Source: Sedimentibacter sp. SX930 (lineage in GTDB: Bacteria; Bacillota; Bacilli; Lactobacillales; Aerococcaceae). Taken from it: 48,253 nt of DNA. The stretch covers positions 1-48,253 of the forward strand of contig MUZD01000013.1 of the NCBI GenBank assembly GCA_002155105.1, written 5' to 3'. Of this stretch, positions 18,251 through 24,269 are shown piece after piece (within the stretch, counting starts at the first letter, position 1; each line of letters starts with the position of its first letter). A program made the translations under genes and the position numbers. The notes beneath the pieces were generated by a model. The model saw only the letters and a program-made list of their open reading frames with translations, was not told the origin of the DNA and ran no database searches.

Positions 18251-18302
18251 TATATATAATCCTCATTTCACAAAGTTTTTAGGTTTCGGTTGTATGCAGA
18301 TA

Positions 18303-18331
18303 ATAATACCCCGGTAGGTATAATTTGTAAA
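18303..18331 (-). promoter_or_regulatory. Promoter with CsoR/CstR-type operator of the CoA-disulfide reductase gene
   Basis: Reading minus, the -35 box is TTTACA (18331-18326) and the -10 box TATTAT (18308-18303), with exactly 17 bases between. The 16-base dyad ATACCTACCGGGGTAT (18321-18306) fills the spacer and enters the -10 box. GC-rich ATACC...GGTAT dyads in this position are typical operators of CsoR-family repressors, including the persulfide sensor CstR, which controls CoA persulfide reductase genes in related bacteria. No CsoR-family gene lies in the window. Confidence 0.65.
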
Positions 18332-18396
18332 GGGAAATGTGTCGAAAATAGTAAAAACTTTTTGCACAAACTCCCATTCCCGGCCCGCCGGTGCCG

Positions 18397-19150
18397 CCCA
18401 CCTCCGACGAAAAGCGCTTTCGTAGGAGGTGGGGTGTCGGTGATCTGCTGTCCTCCTGTTACCGGGCTCTGGCCGGAGCTGAGCTCGGAATCAGAGTCTG
18501 TCCTCCGACGAACGAGGGTTCGTCGGAGTTGAGCGTTTTGCGCTCGCCTCACCTCCGGTGAAGGCGTGCCTGGTAGGAGTTGGTGCTTTCCTCCGGTGAG
18601 CGCCCTTCTCGACGGAGTTTCGGTTTCGGTGATCCGCTGTCCTCCTGTTACCGGCTGCTGGCCGGAGCTGAGCGTGGAATAGGAAGCTTTCCTCCGACGA
18701 ACGAGGGCTCGTCGAAGGTGAGCGATTTGCGCTCGCATCAGCTCCGGCGAAGGCGTGCCTGGTAGGAGGTGGTGCTTTCCTCCGGTGAGAGCCCTTCTCG
18801 ACGGAGTTGCGGTTCCGCTAATCTGGTGTCCTCCTGTTACCGACTGCTGGCCGGAGCTGAGCGCGGAATCGGAAGCTGTCCTCCGACGAACGAGGGCTCG
18901 TCGAAGGTGAGCGATTTGCGCTCGCTTCAGCTCCGGCGAAGACAACCCTGCTCGAAGTTGGTGCTTTCCTCCGGTGAGCGCCCTTCTCAACGGAGTTGCG
19001 GTTCCGGTGATTTGTTTTCCTCCTGTTACCGGTCTCTGGCCGGAGCTGGGTGCGTAATCGCAGTCTGTTCTCCGGCGAAGGGAGCTTGGTCGGAGGAGCA
19101 TATATTCTCCCCGCCTCAACTCCGGCTAAGGCAAGGCTCGTCTGAGTTGC
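18397..19150. repeat. Array of CTCCG-hairpin units with an exact 189-bp higher-order period
   Basis: Each minor unit of about 47 bases opens with CTCC and closes with GGAG or a decayed form after about 25 bases. The best is CTCCGACGAAC, loop GAGG, GTTCGTCGGAG near 18502-18527. Four different minor units make a major repeat. The start CTCCGGTGAG recurs at 18591, 18780 and 18969, each 189 bases apart. Since 189 is a multiple of three, long frames stay open on both strands, but they have no ribosome site and translate to Arg/Ser/Gly-rich chains, so I treat them as non-coding. Shorter arrays of the same units lie at 9421-9568 and 25694-25873. Confidence 0.85.
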
Positions 19151-19201
19151 ACCCATGCAGATTCATTTATGCGATTATTAGATGCCAAGCGCGCGGAACT
19201 T

Positions 19202-19210
19202 TGGTATACT
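19202..19210 (+). promoter_or_regulatory. Extended -10 promoter of the flavodoxin gene
   Basis: TGGTATACT is an extended -10 element (TGn before TATACT, 19205-19210) 42 bases before the flavodoxin start. No good -35 is visible, as is common with extended -10 promoters. Confidence 0.5.
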
Positions 19211-19251
19211 TTCCTTAAGAAAGCAATCGTGAAAAGAAAGAAGGAAATACA

Positions 19252-19923: not shown

Positions 19924-20832
19924 ATGGATGTCGGAATGGAATATGAAATATTGATGCTCCAGCTGGGCTCGTTGGCCCGCAAGCTTTTCAATGCCGAGGA
20001 GAATCTTTCGAAATATCAAGAAGCACTGGATAAGGCCATTGCGACGCTGGAAAAGGAGAACCGCGACCTCGAACGGCTGCGCAATGACAGTTTCTCGAAC
20101 ACGCTCCTGAAGCTATTCGGCAACTTTGACCGCCGCTATGACAAAGAGTACCGTGAAATCATCGGTGCTAAAGTCGAGTTCGACAAGGCCTATGCGATGA
20201 AGATTGCCGCGGCGCGCAGAGTCAAGGAAGTCGAAGCGGACATCGAAGAAAAGAAACTGCGTCTGCGCAACATCAAGGAAGACGTCCTGCGCAAACATCC
20301 GGACATGAACCAGGTCGTCAGCGAGCGCCAACAACAGATTCTGGCCCTTGAGCACGAATGGCGCGAAACGAATGAAGCCGAACAAGCCGGAATCGCGGTG
20401 TTGGAATCACTATCGGATATCATCAGTGGCCTCGATGCCGCCGATGCCATTTCGACTTGGGACTTGATCACCGACAGCAGCCTCATCCTGGATTTCCTGA
20501 AGCACGACAAACTGGATGCCGCCGAAGCCTCGCTGCTGCATCTCGAACAGACCGTCTATACTTTTGCGCGGGAACTGCGCGACTTGGATTTCGTCTTCGA
20601 GAGCGACCTCGAAACCATCTCCTCCACCCAGCGCGCCCTGGACATCTTCTTCGACAACCTCTTCTCCGATTGGGGAACAAAAGCTATCATTGAGAAGAAT
20701 ATCGAAAACCTGAAGAAGCTGCAGGACAGCACCGAGGATGTCATGGAAAGTTTGGCGGAGAAGAAACGCGAACTGGAGACGACTTTGGAAGTGTTGGCGG
20801 ATGAGGGAGATGATATAAAAAACTTGACGTGA
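19924..20832 (+). CDS. Coiled-coil protein of unknown function
   Basis: A 302-residue, highly charged protein with almost continuous heptad patterns. Residues about 20-55 (AEENLSKYQEALDKAIATLEKENRD) and 80-135 form the first long coils; 260-295 (IEKNIENLKKL, LAEKKRELETTLEVL) form the last. A non-coil part (FSNTLLKLFGNFDRRYDKEY) lies near 60-80. There is no signal peptide or membrane segment, so it is cytoplasmic. No family is recognised; it resembles the helical hypothetical proteins often found in Lactobacillales cores, and the GC-rich codon use matches core genes nearby. GGAGGAGG before the ATG fixes the start. It might be structural or a scaffold, which is only a guess. Confidence 0.75.
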   Translation: MDVGMEYEILMLQLGSLARKLFNAEENLSKYQEALDKAIATLEKENRDLERLRNDSFSNTLLKLFGNFDRRYDKEYREIIGAKVEFDKAYAMKIAAARRVKEVEADIEEKKLRLRNIKEDVLRKHPDMNQVVSERQQQILALEHEWRETNEAEQAGIAVLESLSDIISGLDAADAISTWDLITDSSLILDFLKHDKLDAAEASLLHLEQTVYTFARELRDLDFVFESDLETISSTQRALDIFFDNLFSDWGTKAIIEKNIENLKKLQDSTEDVMESLAEKKRELETTLEVLADEGDDIKNLT

Positions 20833-20993
20833 TGAGTTCAGTTCCACTTTTGCTCAATCCTATTTTCGATAACAGAGAAAAAGCCAGAGAGTATTGAATG
20901 CTGCTGAAAAAGTGGCAGCCTAATGATTGTGAGCAAGGAAAGCACCACAACATATTAATTTTACTGTCACATAATTAAAGGAGGTCATTAAAT

Positions 20994-21194
20994 ATGACGA
21001 CAATTACATCTACACCAATCATTCAAGCAATTACAATTATTAAACCTTATGTACAAAATAGAGATGATTTTTACAACTCCCAGATTCTCGGAACTGGGCT
21101 ATCTCCTAAACAAACGTTGGACAACGCAATCTACATTGGAAACCAACCAAAACGTGGATGTACTTACGGTTACTTTGCAGCACGTGCTTACTAA
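20994..21194 (+). CDS. Small protein of 66 residues, function unknown
   Basis: A near-perfect ribosome site (AAAGGAGG) lies nine bases before the ATG, which is the main reason to call it. The product is rich in Ile, Thr, Asn and Tyr (TTITSTPIIQAITIIKPY at the start, GCTYGYFAARAY at the end), with no signal peptide or membrane segment. No family is recognised. Its stop overlaps the first recognisable bases of a broken integrase frame, so it may be the first gene, or a fused remnant, of the mobile element that carries the reverse transcriptase. It may instead be a truncated protein whose 3' end was lost by deletion into the integrase. Confidence 0.5.
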   Translation: MTTITSTPIIQAITIIKPYVQNRDDFYNSQILGTGLSPKQTLDNAIYIGNQPKRGCTYGYFAARAY

Positions 21195-21348
21195 TTACCA
21201 AGAGAAAGGTAGGATAAAATTCCTATCTTTCTTTCATGATTTGCGAGATACTCATGCTTCCTTTCTTTTTCCCAGCGATAATATAAGGCTAGATTTTATT
21301 TCTAAAAAATTAGGGCGTAATTCAATACTTACAACACAAAATTTCTAA
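21187..21348 (+). pseudogene. C-terminal remnant of a tyrosine recombinase (phage-type integrase)
   Basis: The frame reads TNYQEKGRIKFLSFFHDLRD, then THASFLFPSDNIRLDFISKK and LGRNSILTTQNF before the stop. This matches the end of the integrase catalytic domain, normally HDLRHTHASLL...LGHSSI.TT. Box II His and Arg (HDLR) survive. The second conserved His (LGH) is Arg here, and the catalytic Tyr after TTQN is absent. All upstream domains are missing. It is a dead fragment and indicates that the AT-rich segment up to about 24000 came in on an integrating element. Confidence 0.75.
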
Positions 21349-21361
21349 TTAGAATTAACGT

Positions 21362-21390
21362 AAAAAAGACACCAGTAAAATACTGACGCC
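21362..21390 (-). terminator. Rho-independent terminator, probably for the reverse transcriptase transcript
   Basis: Reading minus, GGCGTCAGTA, loop TTT, TACTGGTGTC forms a 10-pair stem with G-U pairs, and TTTTTT follows. It is the first good terminator after the reverse transcriptase stop, 275 bases on. It may also have marked the end of the lost element. Confidence 0.65.
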
Positions 21391-21664
21391 TTAGATCTAT
21401 TAAATTCATTGAAACACTGATTTGTATGCCAAGTCCCACTAAATACTCGCTCAAAACATTAGTATAAAACAAGTTTATTAATGTTTAGAAAATTGTGACG
21501 TTTTATTAAGCTTGTGTTAATAACAGATCTGAAAATATTGTTAATTATATATATATATCTATATTTCCATTACAACAAATAGTTTCAAAAAATTATTAAT
21601 TCAGCTGATTTAAGAACATATTCTTTATTTTATTTGAAAATTATTATGCCATTTGTAAATAAAG
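21391..21664. other. AT-rich spacer after the reverse transcriptase gene
   Basis: No gene is supported. There are runs of alternating AT (near 21548-21562) and no strong hairpin. It would be the 3' untranslated part of the reverse transcriptase transcript if the terminator at 21362-21390 is used. Confidence 0.4.
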
Positions 21665-23017
21665 TCACTTCAAATATTCATATTTTGTATGAATCTTAAT
21701 ACCCATCATCTTCTCTATTTTCTTTTTCCGATTTTTTATCTGGGTCATCATTAAGTTGGTCGTATTTGGTGATATCTCATCAAATTTTTTTTGTGCTCTT
21801 TTTGCATAAGAAATAAAATTACCAAATTCAGTACTTTTTGTTCCTAAGTCAGTATACAAACTATATATCCTTTTTCTATAAGGAAGTTTAGGTAACTGTC
21901 TTGTCCTCTTCCTTGCTTGAGAGTATCCTATCATTTGCTTCGCTTTACGATAAAATTTATATGGACTTTTCCCTCTCATTCTAACTGTTTTTCCATCAAA
22001 AATAAAACCTAGGTAATCTAAACGACGTATTTTAGGATTGTCTATGTTTATTACTTCTTGATTCTTATACAAATATAAGCCTGTCTTATTCTCTTGAATG
22101 ACAATTTTGTTTTTTTTTGCTAAATCTCTGATATACCCTTCTATACCCCGCATATCTAAATCATTAGCAATTTCACTTTTAGGTATGACTAGAATAAAAT
22201 CATCTGAATATCGTCTGTATAGCCCAGAATAATTATTGGCAATTTCATTTAACTCTATATCAAAAGATAATGCATATACATTGGCAAATACTGCACTAAT
22301 AGCCGTTCCTTGTGGTATTCCAAATTTTTCTTTATTTCTTTCAGTACGATTCTTTCTCTGAAATTCTCTAAAATCGCCTAGCTGTTTGAAATAACTATTT
22401 TTCTTCTGGAATTTTAAACTCTCATCGCTACCAAACATTTCTATTAAGAGTTCTTTTTCATAATATCCATATTTTGTTATTGAATGAAACACATTGAACC
22501 AGTCATCTGATAATCTTGATTTGTTCATGACTCTCTTCAATGCATCTTTGAGTAGGATATGATCTATCTTGTCGAAATAATTGGTAAAGTCTCCTACTAC
22601 AACATAGGCTTCATCATATTCAACTATTTTATTGATAATCTCTGCTGCAAAATCAATATTGGATTTTTTCGGTTTATTGTTTCGATATGCAGTAATGCAC
22701 TCGTCTATTCCCAATTTTAAACAAAGCTCATTATAGTAGTCGGAATTCAACATCTCGGCGTAGTATTTATAAATGTAATTATCCCAGTGTCCTGCATACA
22801 TAATGTCTCGATTCTTGGGCTTAATTGGTCTATTATCAAATTCTGGATTCTTTTCTCCAATATTTTTTTCAAAGGATGAAGTGTAGTGTATTAACGGCAA
22901 AAAGCTATGTTGCGCAATCTTAGAAGGATTGGTTACATAGCTTTCAGCATTTTCAATTCTTACTCTATTATCAAAATGTAAATATTTTTTCGTAGGATAT
23001 TTTAATTTATCTAACAT
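21665..23017 (-). CDS. Stand-alone reverse transcriptase of the abortive-infection/DRT type (candidate DRT2-like)
   Basis: A 450-residue RNA-directed DNA polymerase. Motif A is VVGDFTNYFDKIDH (140-153, catalytic Asp143). Motif B is GIPQGTAISAVFANVY (233-248). Motif C is YSDD (270-273) in LYRRYSDDFILVIP. LDYLGFIFDG (333-342) follows as motif E. The N-terminal part has HSFLPLIHYT (37-46), RDIMYAGHWDNYIYKYY (70-86) and AYRNNKPKKSNIDFA (110-124), which I associate with the unknown-group/DRT reverse transcriptases rather than group II introns or retrons. There is no maturase X domain, HNH domain or retron NAXXH motif. The C-terminal third is a basic helical thumb. GAGGTG precedes the ATG by 5 bases. 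The gene stands alone behind a long structured leader, the layout of DRT2. Reverse transcriptase: firm. DRT2 class: about even. Confidence 0.85.
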   Translation of the reverse strand: MLDKLKYPTKKYLHFDNRVRIENAESYVTNPSKIAQHSFLPLIHYTSSFEKNIGEKNPEFDNRPIKPKNRDIMYAGHWDNYIYKYYAEMLNSDYYNELCLKLGIDECITAYRNNKPKKSNIDFAAEIINKIVEYDEAYVVVGDFTNYFDKIDHILLKDALKRVMNKSRLSDDWFNVFHSITKYGYYEKELLIEMFGSDESLKFQKKNSYFKQLGDFREFQRKNRTERNKEKFGIPQGTAISAVFANVYALSFDIELNEIANNYSGLYRRYSDDFILVIPKSEIANDLDMRGIEGYIRDLAKKNKIVIQENKTGLYLYKNQEVINIDNPKIRRLDYLGFIFDGKTVRMRGKSPYKFYRKAKQMIGYSQARKRTRQLPKLPYRKRIYSLYTDLGTKSTEFGNFISYAKRAQKKFDEISPNTTNLMMTQIKNRKKKIEKMMGIKIHTKYEYLK

Positions 23018-23427
23018 ATTTACACCTCTTTTTTTTGGAGCGGAAAGGAACAGCAGACCTGATTTCTGACAGTCGTTCCTTTCTGCAGCGCGTGTTAGTC
23101 GATACTCCCTACATTACGACCATTTGATATGTAGAAGATCAGGGTGATTCAACTAATCTGTTACAATGAAATTGACTGGATCGTGGAAGGAGCAAATCAT
23201 ATGGACTTGTCTATTCTGACAATCTACATCTTATCAAACGTGTTAATCCAAGGAACGTTGATGATTCTTGAAATTAACTTAAAGCAATTCTTAGACAGCT
23301 GGGCCGATAAGTTTCTGCTTGACAGTTTGAAACATTGTATTCTGCGTACCTATAGCAGCAGGCATCATTATTCTAACACCATCCAATGTTTATTACTAGA
23401 TGATTAATGGAAAAACTCTCTTTATTC
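23018..23427 (-). ncRNA. Structured leader of the reverse transcriptase, candidate template RNA
   Basis: A TATAAT box at 23439-23434 could start a transcript of about 410 bases before the reverse transcriptase. In the leader I see four hairpins: ATCAACGT with ACGTTTGAT (23262-23255/23241-23233, one bulge); GATCCAG with CTGATC plus TCAA/TTGA inside (about 23182-23136); CTACAT with ATGTAG (23134-23129/23114-23109); and GCAGAAAGGAAC with GTTCCTTTCCGC (23086-23075/23051-23040, 12 positions, one mismatch, 23-base loop). The last ends 22 bases before the start codon. No long sense frame begins there. DRT2 and some other defence reverse transcriptases copy a structured RNA encoded directly upstream. 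The hairpins are seen; the role is inferred. Confidence 0.45.
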
Positions 23428-23507
23428 ATCAAAATTATAAACTAAGTTTAGATTCATATAACGTAATTCAAATGTCTTTTTGAAATGAATTTGCCTTATT
23501 ATCGCTT

Positions 23508-23612
23508 TTACATTTTTACTTCCTCACAGTAATCATTTTCCCTCATAACCACCATAAAAATATCCGTCACTTGAACAGGAGGCATCCCCAAATATCCATT
23601 ATAATTCATCAT
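23508..23612 (-). CDS. Possible 34-residue peptide upstream of the reverse transcriptase leader
   Basis: Two ATG codons in a row (23612, 23609) open MMNYNGYLGMPPVQVTDIF, ending REDYC-like (MRENDYCEEVKM). The frame continues upstream without a stop for about 22 more codons (RIEPPFLGAKLQRGC), so this may be the end of a broken longer gene. The only G-rich ribosome-like site (AAAGGGGG) is too far from the ATG. I do not recognise it. It is listed because it lies in the same island and direction as the reverse transcriptase. Confidence 0.2.
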   Translation of the reverse strand: MMNYNGYLGMPPVQVTDIFMVVMRENDYCEEVKM

Positions 23613-23817
23613 AGGTCTGCTATCAGTATAGCACCCCCTTTGTAACTTTGCTCCAAGAAAGGGTGGTTCAATACGTTTGCATTATAACAAGACTGGCCAG
23701 CTGTTCTAATTTAACTTTTGCTTCACCACTTTCAAAGAACTAGTTTATTATTCGATTTTAAATCTATCTGCTCATATCAACAATCCCGCTTTGAGAATGC
23801 GTCTTATCTTTTTAAGG

Positions 23818-23973
23818 TTACTGATCGGAAATACGATCATGGAGCTCTTTGGTACCGACAAAAACGATCATGTCAGGTGTCCGTGATACCAGTGAGCCGA
23901 GATGTCCGGGTTCAATCATAACAGCTATAATCAACGCACCAAAACTTACCATTGATGCCACTTTGACACTCAT
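23818..23973 (-). CDS. Small membrane protein of 51 residues
   Basis: GGAGGAG precedes the ATG at 23973 with good spacing, which supports translation. The product begins MSVKVASMVSFGALIIAVMI, one likely membrane segment, then EPGHLGSLVSRTPDMIVFVG and a short charged tail ending DRISDQ. No family is recognised. It lies on the same strand as the reverse transcriptase, about 950 bases before its start, in the same AT-rich island. Small single-span proteins next to defence genes can be toxins or membrane effectors, but nothing in the sequence proves that here. It could also be the surviving start of a longer lost gene. Confidence 0.45.
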   Translation of the reverse strand: MSVKVASMVSFGALIIAVMIEPGHLGSLVSRTPDMIVFVGTKELHDRISDQ

Positions 23974-24269
23974 TGAATTTCTCCTCCATTAAATAATTGT
24001 CTGCATAGTCATAACTTATTGTTGTTAGTATTTTCAGCGTCTTGTTAAGTTATTTTAAGGGCCTTCCGGAATTTTTTTTATTCTAAAGAACCTGATAGCA
24101 ATTGAACCCTGATTTTTTAAAGACATGCTTAATTTCGACACACAAAAAAATCTATTGCATTCTTGCGGATCATATGAGAATATAGTACATGTAATCGATT
24201 TTATATCAATTACAGGAGCCCTTGTGGTTCCAGCTTCTGTTTAATCCCCCCAAGGTTAAATAGACAAAG

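Follow-up and report, generated by a model that had tools for sequence, protein, structure and literature searches.

A DRT2 locus from a mostly Bacilli clade with a conserved upstream RNA, a predicted GUU-flanked template and a stop-free antisense frame

The window, a 48,253-nucleotide stretch of contig MUZD01000013.1 from a genome deposited as Sedimentibacter sp. SX930 that must be Trichococcus, carries on its minus strand a gene for a 450-residue reverse transcriptase (RT) starting at an ATG (Table 1). A preliminary description, made from the sequence alone, had proposed this enzyme and its YSDD, GIPQG and AYRNN motifs; the ORF is real, and the motifs are mostly invariant in an alignment of the window RT with 10 relatives. 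RVT_1 is its only Pfam domain at E up to 0.001, with no maturase or HNH domain at that threshold, and the retron reading was rejected, the NCBIfam retron models scoring 43.9 against a cut-off of 235 or weaker; the absence of maturase, HNH and retron marks noted at the outset thus holds. The YxDD motif is intact and the gene is a single ORF without an effector domain, as in DRT2 systems.

By sequence and by modeled fold, the window RT is firmly a member of the DRT2 (UG2) family, in line with the DRT2-type layout suggested earlier. The PADLOC Drt2 model matches it with 445.5 bits (E 7.5e-134) and a second Drt2 model with 292.9, while the best non-Drt2 family reaches 67.7. Solved DRT2 structures match it by sequence at E of about 1e-50, and a fold search with an AlphaFold2 model from an alignment of 11 rows (mean pLDDT 70.5; poor in the first 80 residues) places the DRT2 structure 9c0i first (E 3.4e-24) and DRT9 next (E 1.8e-10). 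The best NCBIfam model is also Drt2, but its score of 338.9 lies under the cut-off of 390, and the window RT is therefore a divergent member. A group II intron RT/maturase shares the RT fold, but the window has neither a maturase domain nor an intron RNA: the NCBIfam model gives E 1.3e-16 with 60.7 bits against a cut-off of 300, and there is no Rfam match, hence no intron RNA match, at E up to 1. The group II intron reading was rejected on these grounds, and the DGR reading likewise, as the window RT matches DRT2 far above the enzymes of either class.

In a tree limited to 55 DRT2-like RTs, the window RT sits in a divergent, mostly Bacilli clade, several inner nodes of which are weak. It clusters with the RTs of genomes G130 and G144 (support 0.98), apart from the other two Trichococcus RTs, and this grouping suggests that the locus was transferred horizontally. 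RT matches were found in 4 of the 76 genomes of the host family, with a fifth match (E 3.6e-4) spanning residues 232-298 only, and in 20 of 395 genomes drawn from the host order at E up to 1e-30. A pattern search of the genome contigs from the single protein gave 35 pattern matches and no relative, and an alignment-based query of the same contigs gave 81 relatives, of which 80 were kept. The viral contigs gave 328 pattern matches and no relative; a DRT2 relative is present in three phage records, one of them Clostridioides phage HGP05. A predicted DRT2 in Bacillota is already in print, as the available text of PMC12786058 lists a Listeria monocytogenes strain with DRT2.

The RT gene lies in a strain-specific insert: the chromosome shared with G068, of the same species, stops at 20815 and resumes at 24143. 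We searched for the flanks in 10 of the 12 other genomes of the genus. In nine of these both lie on a single contig, about 0.34 to 15.4 kb apart; in the tenth, G067, they are on different contigs. PADLOC, run on 10 ORFs picked from the cargo of this site, found AbiEi-, AbiC- and DzbA-like genes in G068, AbiLi- and NsnA-like genes with a methyltransferase in G066, and AbiEii in G071. G066 and G071 also hold sugar-transport and glycosidase-like ORFs there, recognized by eye, and therefore more than defence genes is exchanged. The locus is thus at a chromosomal swap site and not in a recognisable mobile element. The remnant integrase reported beside the RT is weakly supported. The fragment resembles the C-terminal end of a tyrosine integrase but has no Pfam integrase match; tblastn matches it to an Enterococcus phage region that carries no annotation (60.5% identity over 38 aa, E 1e-5) and far more weakly to annotated integrases (E 0.1 and above). 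Across strains (L141-L149) the variable site is bordered by a hypothetical ORF and an M29 peptidase, and some strains carry almost nothing there. Elsewhere, at 18268-19218 of the window and also in L141, L143 and L144, both strands carry overlapping ORFs in which SSGERPSRRS/RRRTADYR-like peptides recur; these are probably an intergenic Trichococcus DNA repeat family rather than genes.

Table 1 Features of the locus in window coordinates.
Feature	Position	Strand	Basis or remark
Strain-specific insert at variable Trichococcus site	20816..24142	.	ends relative to same-species G068
Fragment resembling C-terminal end of tyrosine integrase, beside RT	21049-21348		
RT ORF	21665..23017	-	450 aa, ATG start
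Predicted DRT2 non-coding RNA	23020..23363	-	conserved across homologs; ends inferred
Extended -10 (TGTTAGAAT), predicted promoter for ncRNA and RT	23370..23378	-	pattern TGNTANNAT
5' handle hairpin	23342..23361	-	covariation; stem in window only 4 bp
Predicted 180-nt RT template (one repeat unit)	23154..23333	-	
GUU-1, first predicted jump repeat, within template	23331..23333	-	
GUU-2, second predicted jump repeat, directly 3' of template	23151..23153	-	
Pseudoknot arm 1 (CCUGAU), 3' of template	23138..23143	-	sequence, covariation
Pseudoknot arm 2 (AUCAGG), terminal hairpin loop	23058..23063	-	sequence, covariation
Scaffold hairpin H1	23109..23134	-	covariation
Second pseudoknot-type pairing, H1 loop (GGUCG) with CGACU	23097..23121	-	hand-placed arms only
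Terminal hairpin H2, the last hairpin of the preliminary description	23043..23083	-	arms 23074-23083 and 23043-23052, 10 bp
TTGACA, predicted junction promoter -35 on concatemeric cDNA	23319..23324	+	
TACAAT, predicted junction promoter -10	23162..23167	+	17 bp from -35 only once repeats are joined
AAGGAG, predicted Shine-Dalgarno of neo	23187..23192	+	
ATG, predicted neo start	23201..23203	+	60-codon repeats, frame open through all of them

In the closest relatives, the sequence 5' of the RT aligns all the way from the extended -10 to the RT start, while identity in the DNA ahead of the promoter is 26-55% for 7 of 8 pairs and 92% for the remaining one, the closely related L009/L010. Template identity between relatives is 49-92%. 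The TGNTANNAT pattern recurs 43-49 nt 5' of the template in 17 of 18 loci. We placed the 5' end of the predicted RNA about 7 nt past this -10 and its 3' end near the RT start codon. That the RNA is produced and bound by the RT is a prediction. The preliminary description had counted four hairpins in this region. The last of them is real, with 10-bp arms, and 9 of its 12 predicted pairs have a sequence in which both sides changed and pairing was kept; as a set of four they are not beyond chance by folding energy. Folding energy is not significant for the 383-nt leader (z = -1.16) or for eight scaffolds (+0.16 to -1.65), and we rejected it as evidence of structure. The support for the RNA structure is comparative, not energetic.

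Five helices, with hand-placed arms and 14 to 17 loci each, show pairing of 92.9, 95.2, 96.0, 98.6 and 100%, compared with 65, 63, 82, 66 and 77% when the arms are shuffled, and none of 2000 shuffles reaches the observed pairing for any of them. L004 and L015 were omitted from all four scaffold helices because their scaffolds did not line up; the handle was scored without L045, H1 also without L040 and L050, and H2 also without L046. When the best 6-bp match was chosen freely in 15 loci, pseudoknot 1 and the 5' handle were each matched by 0 of 5000 permutations. The signal is uneven across loci: a clear handle is missing from L013, L045 and L050, and 6 of 14 swapped partners fit the pseudoknot arm of L011 and of L013 as well as its own does. 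The window has the full 6-bp pseudoknot and 4 of 6 pairs in the handle stem. The covariance model R1, built from 11 training sequences and run over 54 sources, recovers all 11 as well as L042, L031, L045 and L046 at the expected place and finds nothing in 37 of the 54; its weak matches to L057 (E 0.28) and L017 (E 0.81) are not credible. By sequence, then, the locus has a conserved upstream ncRNA with a 5' handle and a pseudoknotted 3' scaffold, as DRT2 systems do. Neither of the two outcomes that the preliminary description gave as refuting it, a group II intron or DGR affiliation of the RT and a lack of conservation or covariation upstream, was observed.

The 410 bases upstream of the RT hold no sense frame of 60 aa or more, as stated in the preliminary description, which however missed an 87-aa antisense ORF (23144..23407, plus strand) that proved to be the key to the locus. 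This strand, copied head to tail from the predicted template, would place TTGACA 17 bp from TACAAT across the junction, followed by AAGGAG and the ATG at 23201, and the frame of the joined repeats runs on with no stop: ICYNEIDWIVEGANHMDLSILTIYILSNVLIQGTLMILEINLKQFLDSWADKFLLDSLKL. The proposal that the upstream RNA is a rolling-circle template therefore gains a predicted template unit, a junction promoter and a stop-free frame. The template is flanked by a short direct repeat, GUU, as DRT2 templates are by theirs.

These features recur in the 18 loci that we tabulated, the window and 17 relatives out of 23 clade loci. All 18 have a stop-free unit of 162-192 nt whose length is divisible by 3, as each of the seven lengths seen (162, 171, 177, 180, 186, 189 and 192 nt) is; dinucleotide-matched shuffles are open in 0.1-10.4% of cases, and the sense strand is open in 0 of 18 loci. 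In 17 loci a junction promoter is predicted with no more than 2 mismatches in either hexamer, spaced 17 bp in 16 of them and 18 bp in L004; L015 falls short at the junction -35, which has 3 mismatches. GUU is common in register to both template ends in 17 loci and is the only shared trinucleotide in 12, the exception being L045 with a six-base repeat without GUU. We rejected ACA as the jump motif, as none of the 18 loci shares it in register between the two ends. An SD-like sequence lies ahead of an in-frame start, chosen by eye among the in-frame starts, in 16 of the 16 loci looked at (L042 and L045 left out). The start is ATG in 13 and GTG in 3, at 44-62 nt from the beginning of the unit. 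Two frames are open in L048. Of the five clade loci outside the table, L051 and L052 are open with other repeats under the promoter and repeat rule described below, Kurthia L043 has an open 168-nt unit with no exact repeat, and in Streptococcus L014 and L049 no unit was found.

We considered whether the antisense frame could be an ordinary small genomic gene (23201-23407 or 23144-23407, plus strand), such as a small hydrophobic toxin, with the RNA as its antisense regulator. Such a linear ORF exists, 68 aa from 23201 with a Shine-Dalgarno and an ATG; an extended -10 (TGTTACAAT) lies ahead of it, and its product is hydrophobic. Nevertheless, in 16 loci the linear ORF ends 5 to 173 nt beyond the template at no shared point, the neighbouring gene is a DRT2 RT, and a small gene leaves unexplained the multiple-of-3 unit in 18 of 18 loci, the -35 at the far end, the 17-bp junction spacing and the GUU repeat. 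We therefore regard it as very improbable. We give as little credence to decay or inactivity of the DRT2 in this strain. The adjoining integrase remnant and the incomplete handle stem would fit it, but the 450-aa ORF is intact with its catalytic residues and the unit, promoter, repeats and 6-bp pseudoknot are intact as well.

Some template pairs had first been picked with the frame filter on, and we therefore ran two rules that ignore the frame. The first takes the best junction promoter with a direct repeat of 3 or more, in 87 loci that remain after 18 duplicate or non-DRT2 loci and those with under 440 nt upstream were dropped and that still include near-alike ones. Its top choice is open in 49 of the 87 loci compared with 937 of 7352 candidate pairs overall, and in 37 of 75 without 12 near-alike Rhodobacteraceae-type loci that share one 129-nt CGTT unit. 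The tabulated unit is ranked first in 11 of 18 loci. The first choice is not open in six, L009, L010, L012, L013 and L039, where the tabulated unit ranks 2, 3, 5, 2 and 2, and L015, where it is absent among the pairs listed; in L061 the first choice is another open unit. The second rule uses the promoter elements and an exact 17-bp spacing alone, at any cut and with ties averaged. In the clade it gives 14.5 of 23 open, against a shuffle mean of 1.15 and maximum of 2.65 (60 shuffles), and in all loci (92, with L023 dropped and L115-L120 added) 48.4 open, against 8.0 and at most 10.5 (20 shuffles). The open unit at times differs from the tabulated one (L004, L010 and L043). Neither set of counts is to be read as a probability, because the relatives are not independent. 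The jump repeats match their own partner better than swapped ones (4.32 vs 2.36), which is not evidence because the pairs had been pre-chosen to share at least 3 bases.

Outside the clade, other candidate jump repeats appear under the first rule, CGTT in Rhodobacteraceae and GATTG in Clostridia, both with 129-nt units, and two phage records (L119 and L120) carry a GTAT repeat with units of 132 and 135 nt. The open units with these repeats come from the Clostridia loci L054, L055 and L059, from part of L094-L113 (Rhodobacteraceae and relatives) and from the two phage records. For the Enterococcus faecium plasmid locus L117, none of the five candidates listed is open.

The predicted Neo proteins are more hydrophobic than shuffles (mean GRAVY 0.70 vs 0.19), with single-locus z-scores of 0.6 to 2.6; in L004 and L045 a different frame is more hydrophobic than Neo. 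On the Kyte-Doolittle scale, a value of about 1.6 suggests a membrane span, and the best 19-residue Neo window scores 1.59-2.58. An AlphaFold2 model of one Neo repeat is a single long helix (mean pLDDT 77.8, pTM 0.44), which was not used as evidence. Template substitutions are spread evenly over the codon positions in two close pairs, 6/4/4 in T. flocculiformis/K1Tr and 5/5/5 in G130/G144, with a sole indel of 3 nt, and therefore selection at the amino-acid level is not visible. Published Neo is described, in the available text of PMC12039810, as conserved mostly through nucleotide signals, with a bias to hydrophobic codons.

The lack of codon-position bias in these two pairs, together with the two open frames of L048, would also fit a DRT2-type RT that copies its RNA repeatedly to make a cDNA that is itself the effector, comparable to the homopolymer cDNA of DRT9, with the open frame a by-product of composition. 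This is hardly likely, given that shuffles of the same dinucleotide composition are so seldom open and that an SD-like sequence and a start follow the junction promoter in every locus looked at. Template stop codons, moreover, abolished defence by KpnDRT2 although cDNA was still made, according to the available text of PMC12039810. DRT9 (UG28) resembles the window in having a UG RT with an upstream ncRNA and is the second-best fold match, but it copies a poly-U tract into poly-dA, for which no coding role was found in the available texts (PMC12483538, PMC12632851).

We consider it highly probable that this is a DRT2 system in which GUU guides the jump and each neo repeat has 60 codons. The DRT2 identity, the conserved structured RNA, the direct repeat, the junction promoter, the multiple-of-3 stop-free frame, the SD and the start are read from the sequence; cDNA synthesis, jumping, the phage trigger, Neo expression and toxicity would follow by analogy with KpnDRT2, as far as the available texts describe it (PMC11100668, PMC12039810). 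The RT and the upstream RNA would be co-transcribed from the extended -10 promoter, and the folded RNA, with its 5' handle and pseudoknotted 3' scaffold, would hold the RT. The RT would copy the 180-nt template up to and including GUU-1, whereupon the cDNA end, AAC, may leave GUU-1 and re-pair with GUU-2; copying would restart there, and repeats of 180 nt would therefore be strung together. Once the cDNA becomes double-stranded, which in KpnDRT2 occurs on phage infection, each junction would create a promoter that is absent from the genome, and its transcript would contain the AAGGAG, the ATG and 60-codon repeats read in one frame without end. The resulting hydrophobic protein, Neo, would then arrest growth and stop the phage.

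The resemblance to KpnDRT2 of Klebsiella pneumoniae (PDB 9c0i; PMC11100668, PMC12039810, PMC12596737, in their available text) lies in the single UG2 RT gene with its upstream ncRNA, the order of 5' handle, template and pseudoknotted 3' scaffold (PMC12039810, PMC12596737), the direct repeat flanking the template, the junction promoter with 17-bp spacing, and a unit divisible by 3 with a stop-free frame and a hydrophobic Neo. The two RTs are 30% identical over the fold alignment, and the window has YSDD where KpnDRT2 has YCDD. The jump repeat is GUU in the window rather than ACA (ACA-1/ACA-2), the unit is 180 nt (162-192 in the 18 loci) rather than 120, and the predicted ncRNA is about 340 nt rather than about 280. 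Published DRT2 units, as described in the available text of PMC12039810, are bounded by ACA, 111-129 nt long in 42 close homologs and stop-free, with 17-bp junction spacing; the window unit lies outside this range. In the available text of PMC11100668, Tang et al. found Neo harder to annotate in divergent clades and allowed for other mechanisms there. GUU-type or long DRT2 units do not appear in the literature as covered here, which is openly accessible main text, with PMC11100668 standing for Tang et al., and includes the available texts of PMC12632851, PMC12483538 and PMC11124354.

This divergent Bacilli clade would follow the same logic as KpnDRT2 once the ACA requirement is dropped, the rule being a direct repeat with a junction promoter, mostly at 17 bp. 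The jump mechanism thereby becomes testable, as one can ask whether a repeat-to-repeat match alone suffices or whether the letters matter too. The frame-blind rules offer a simple route to hidden neo genes, and the clade offers Gram-positive DRT2 systems for testing. We propose more tentatively, as a possibility that we hold about evenly balanced and do not favour, that the DRT2 jump signal is no fixed ACA and that any short direct repeat could serve, provided its two copies co-vary, as GUU would in Bacilli, CGUU in Rhodobacteraceae, GAUUG in Clostridia and GUAU in the two phage records. The endless-gene mechanism would then extend far beyond Klebsiella-like systems. As part of the same proposal, the Bacilli repeats, of 54-64 residues, would each carry a hydrophobic stretch of membrane-spanning length, so that Neo may act on the membrane.

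The two streptococcal relatives, L014 (Streptococcus infantis) and L049 (S. mitis), are DRT2 relatives at 45-46% identity. By eye, both have a short sense ORF 5' of the RT (MNFFEEIV... and similar), possibly a different arrangement.
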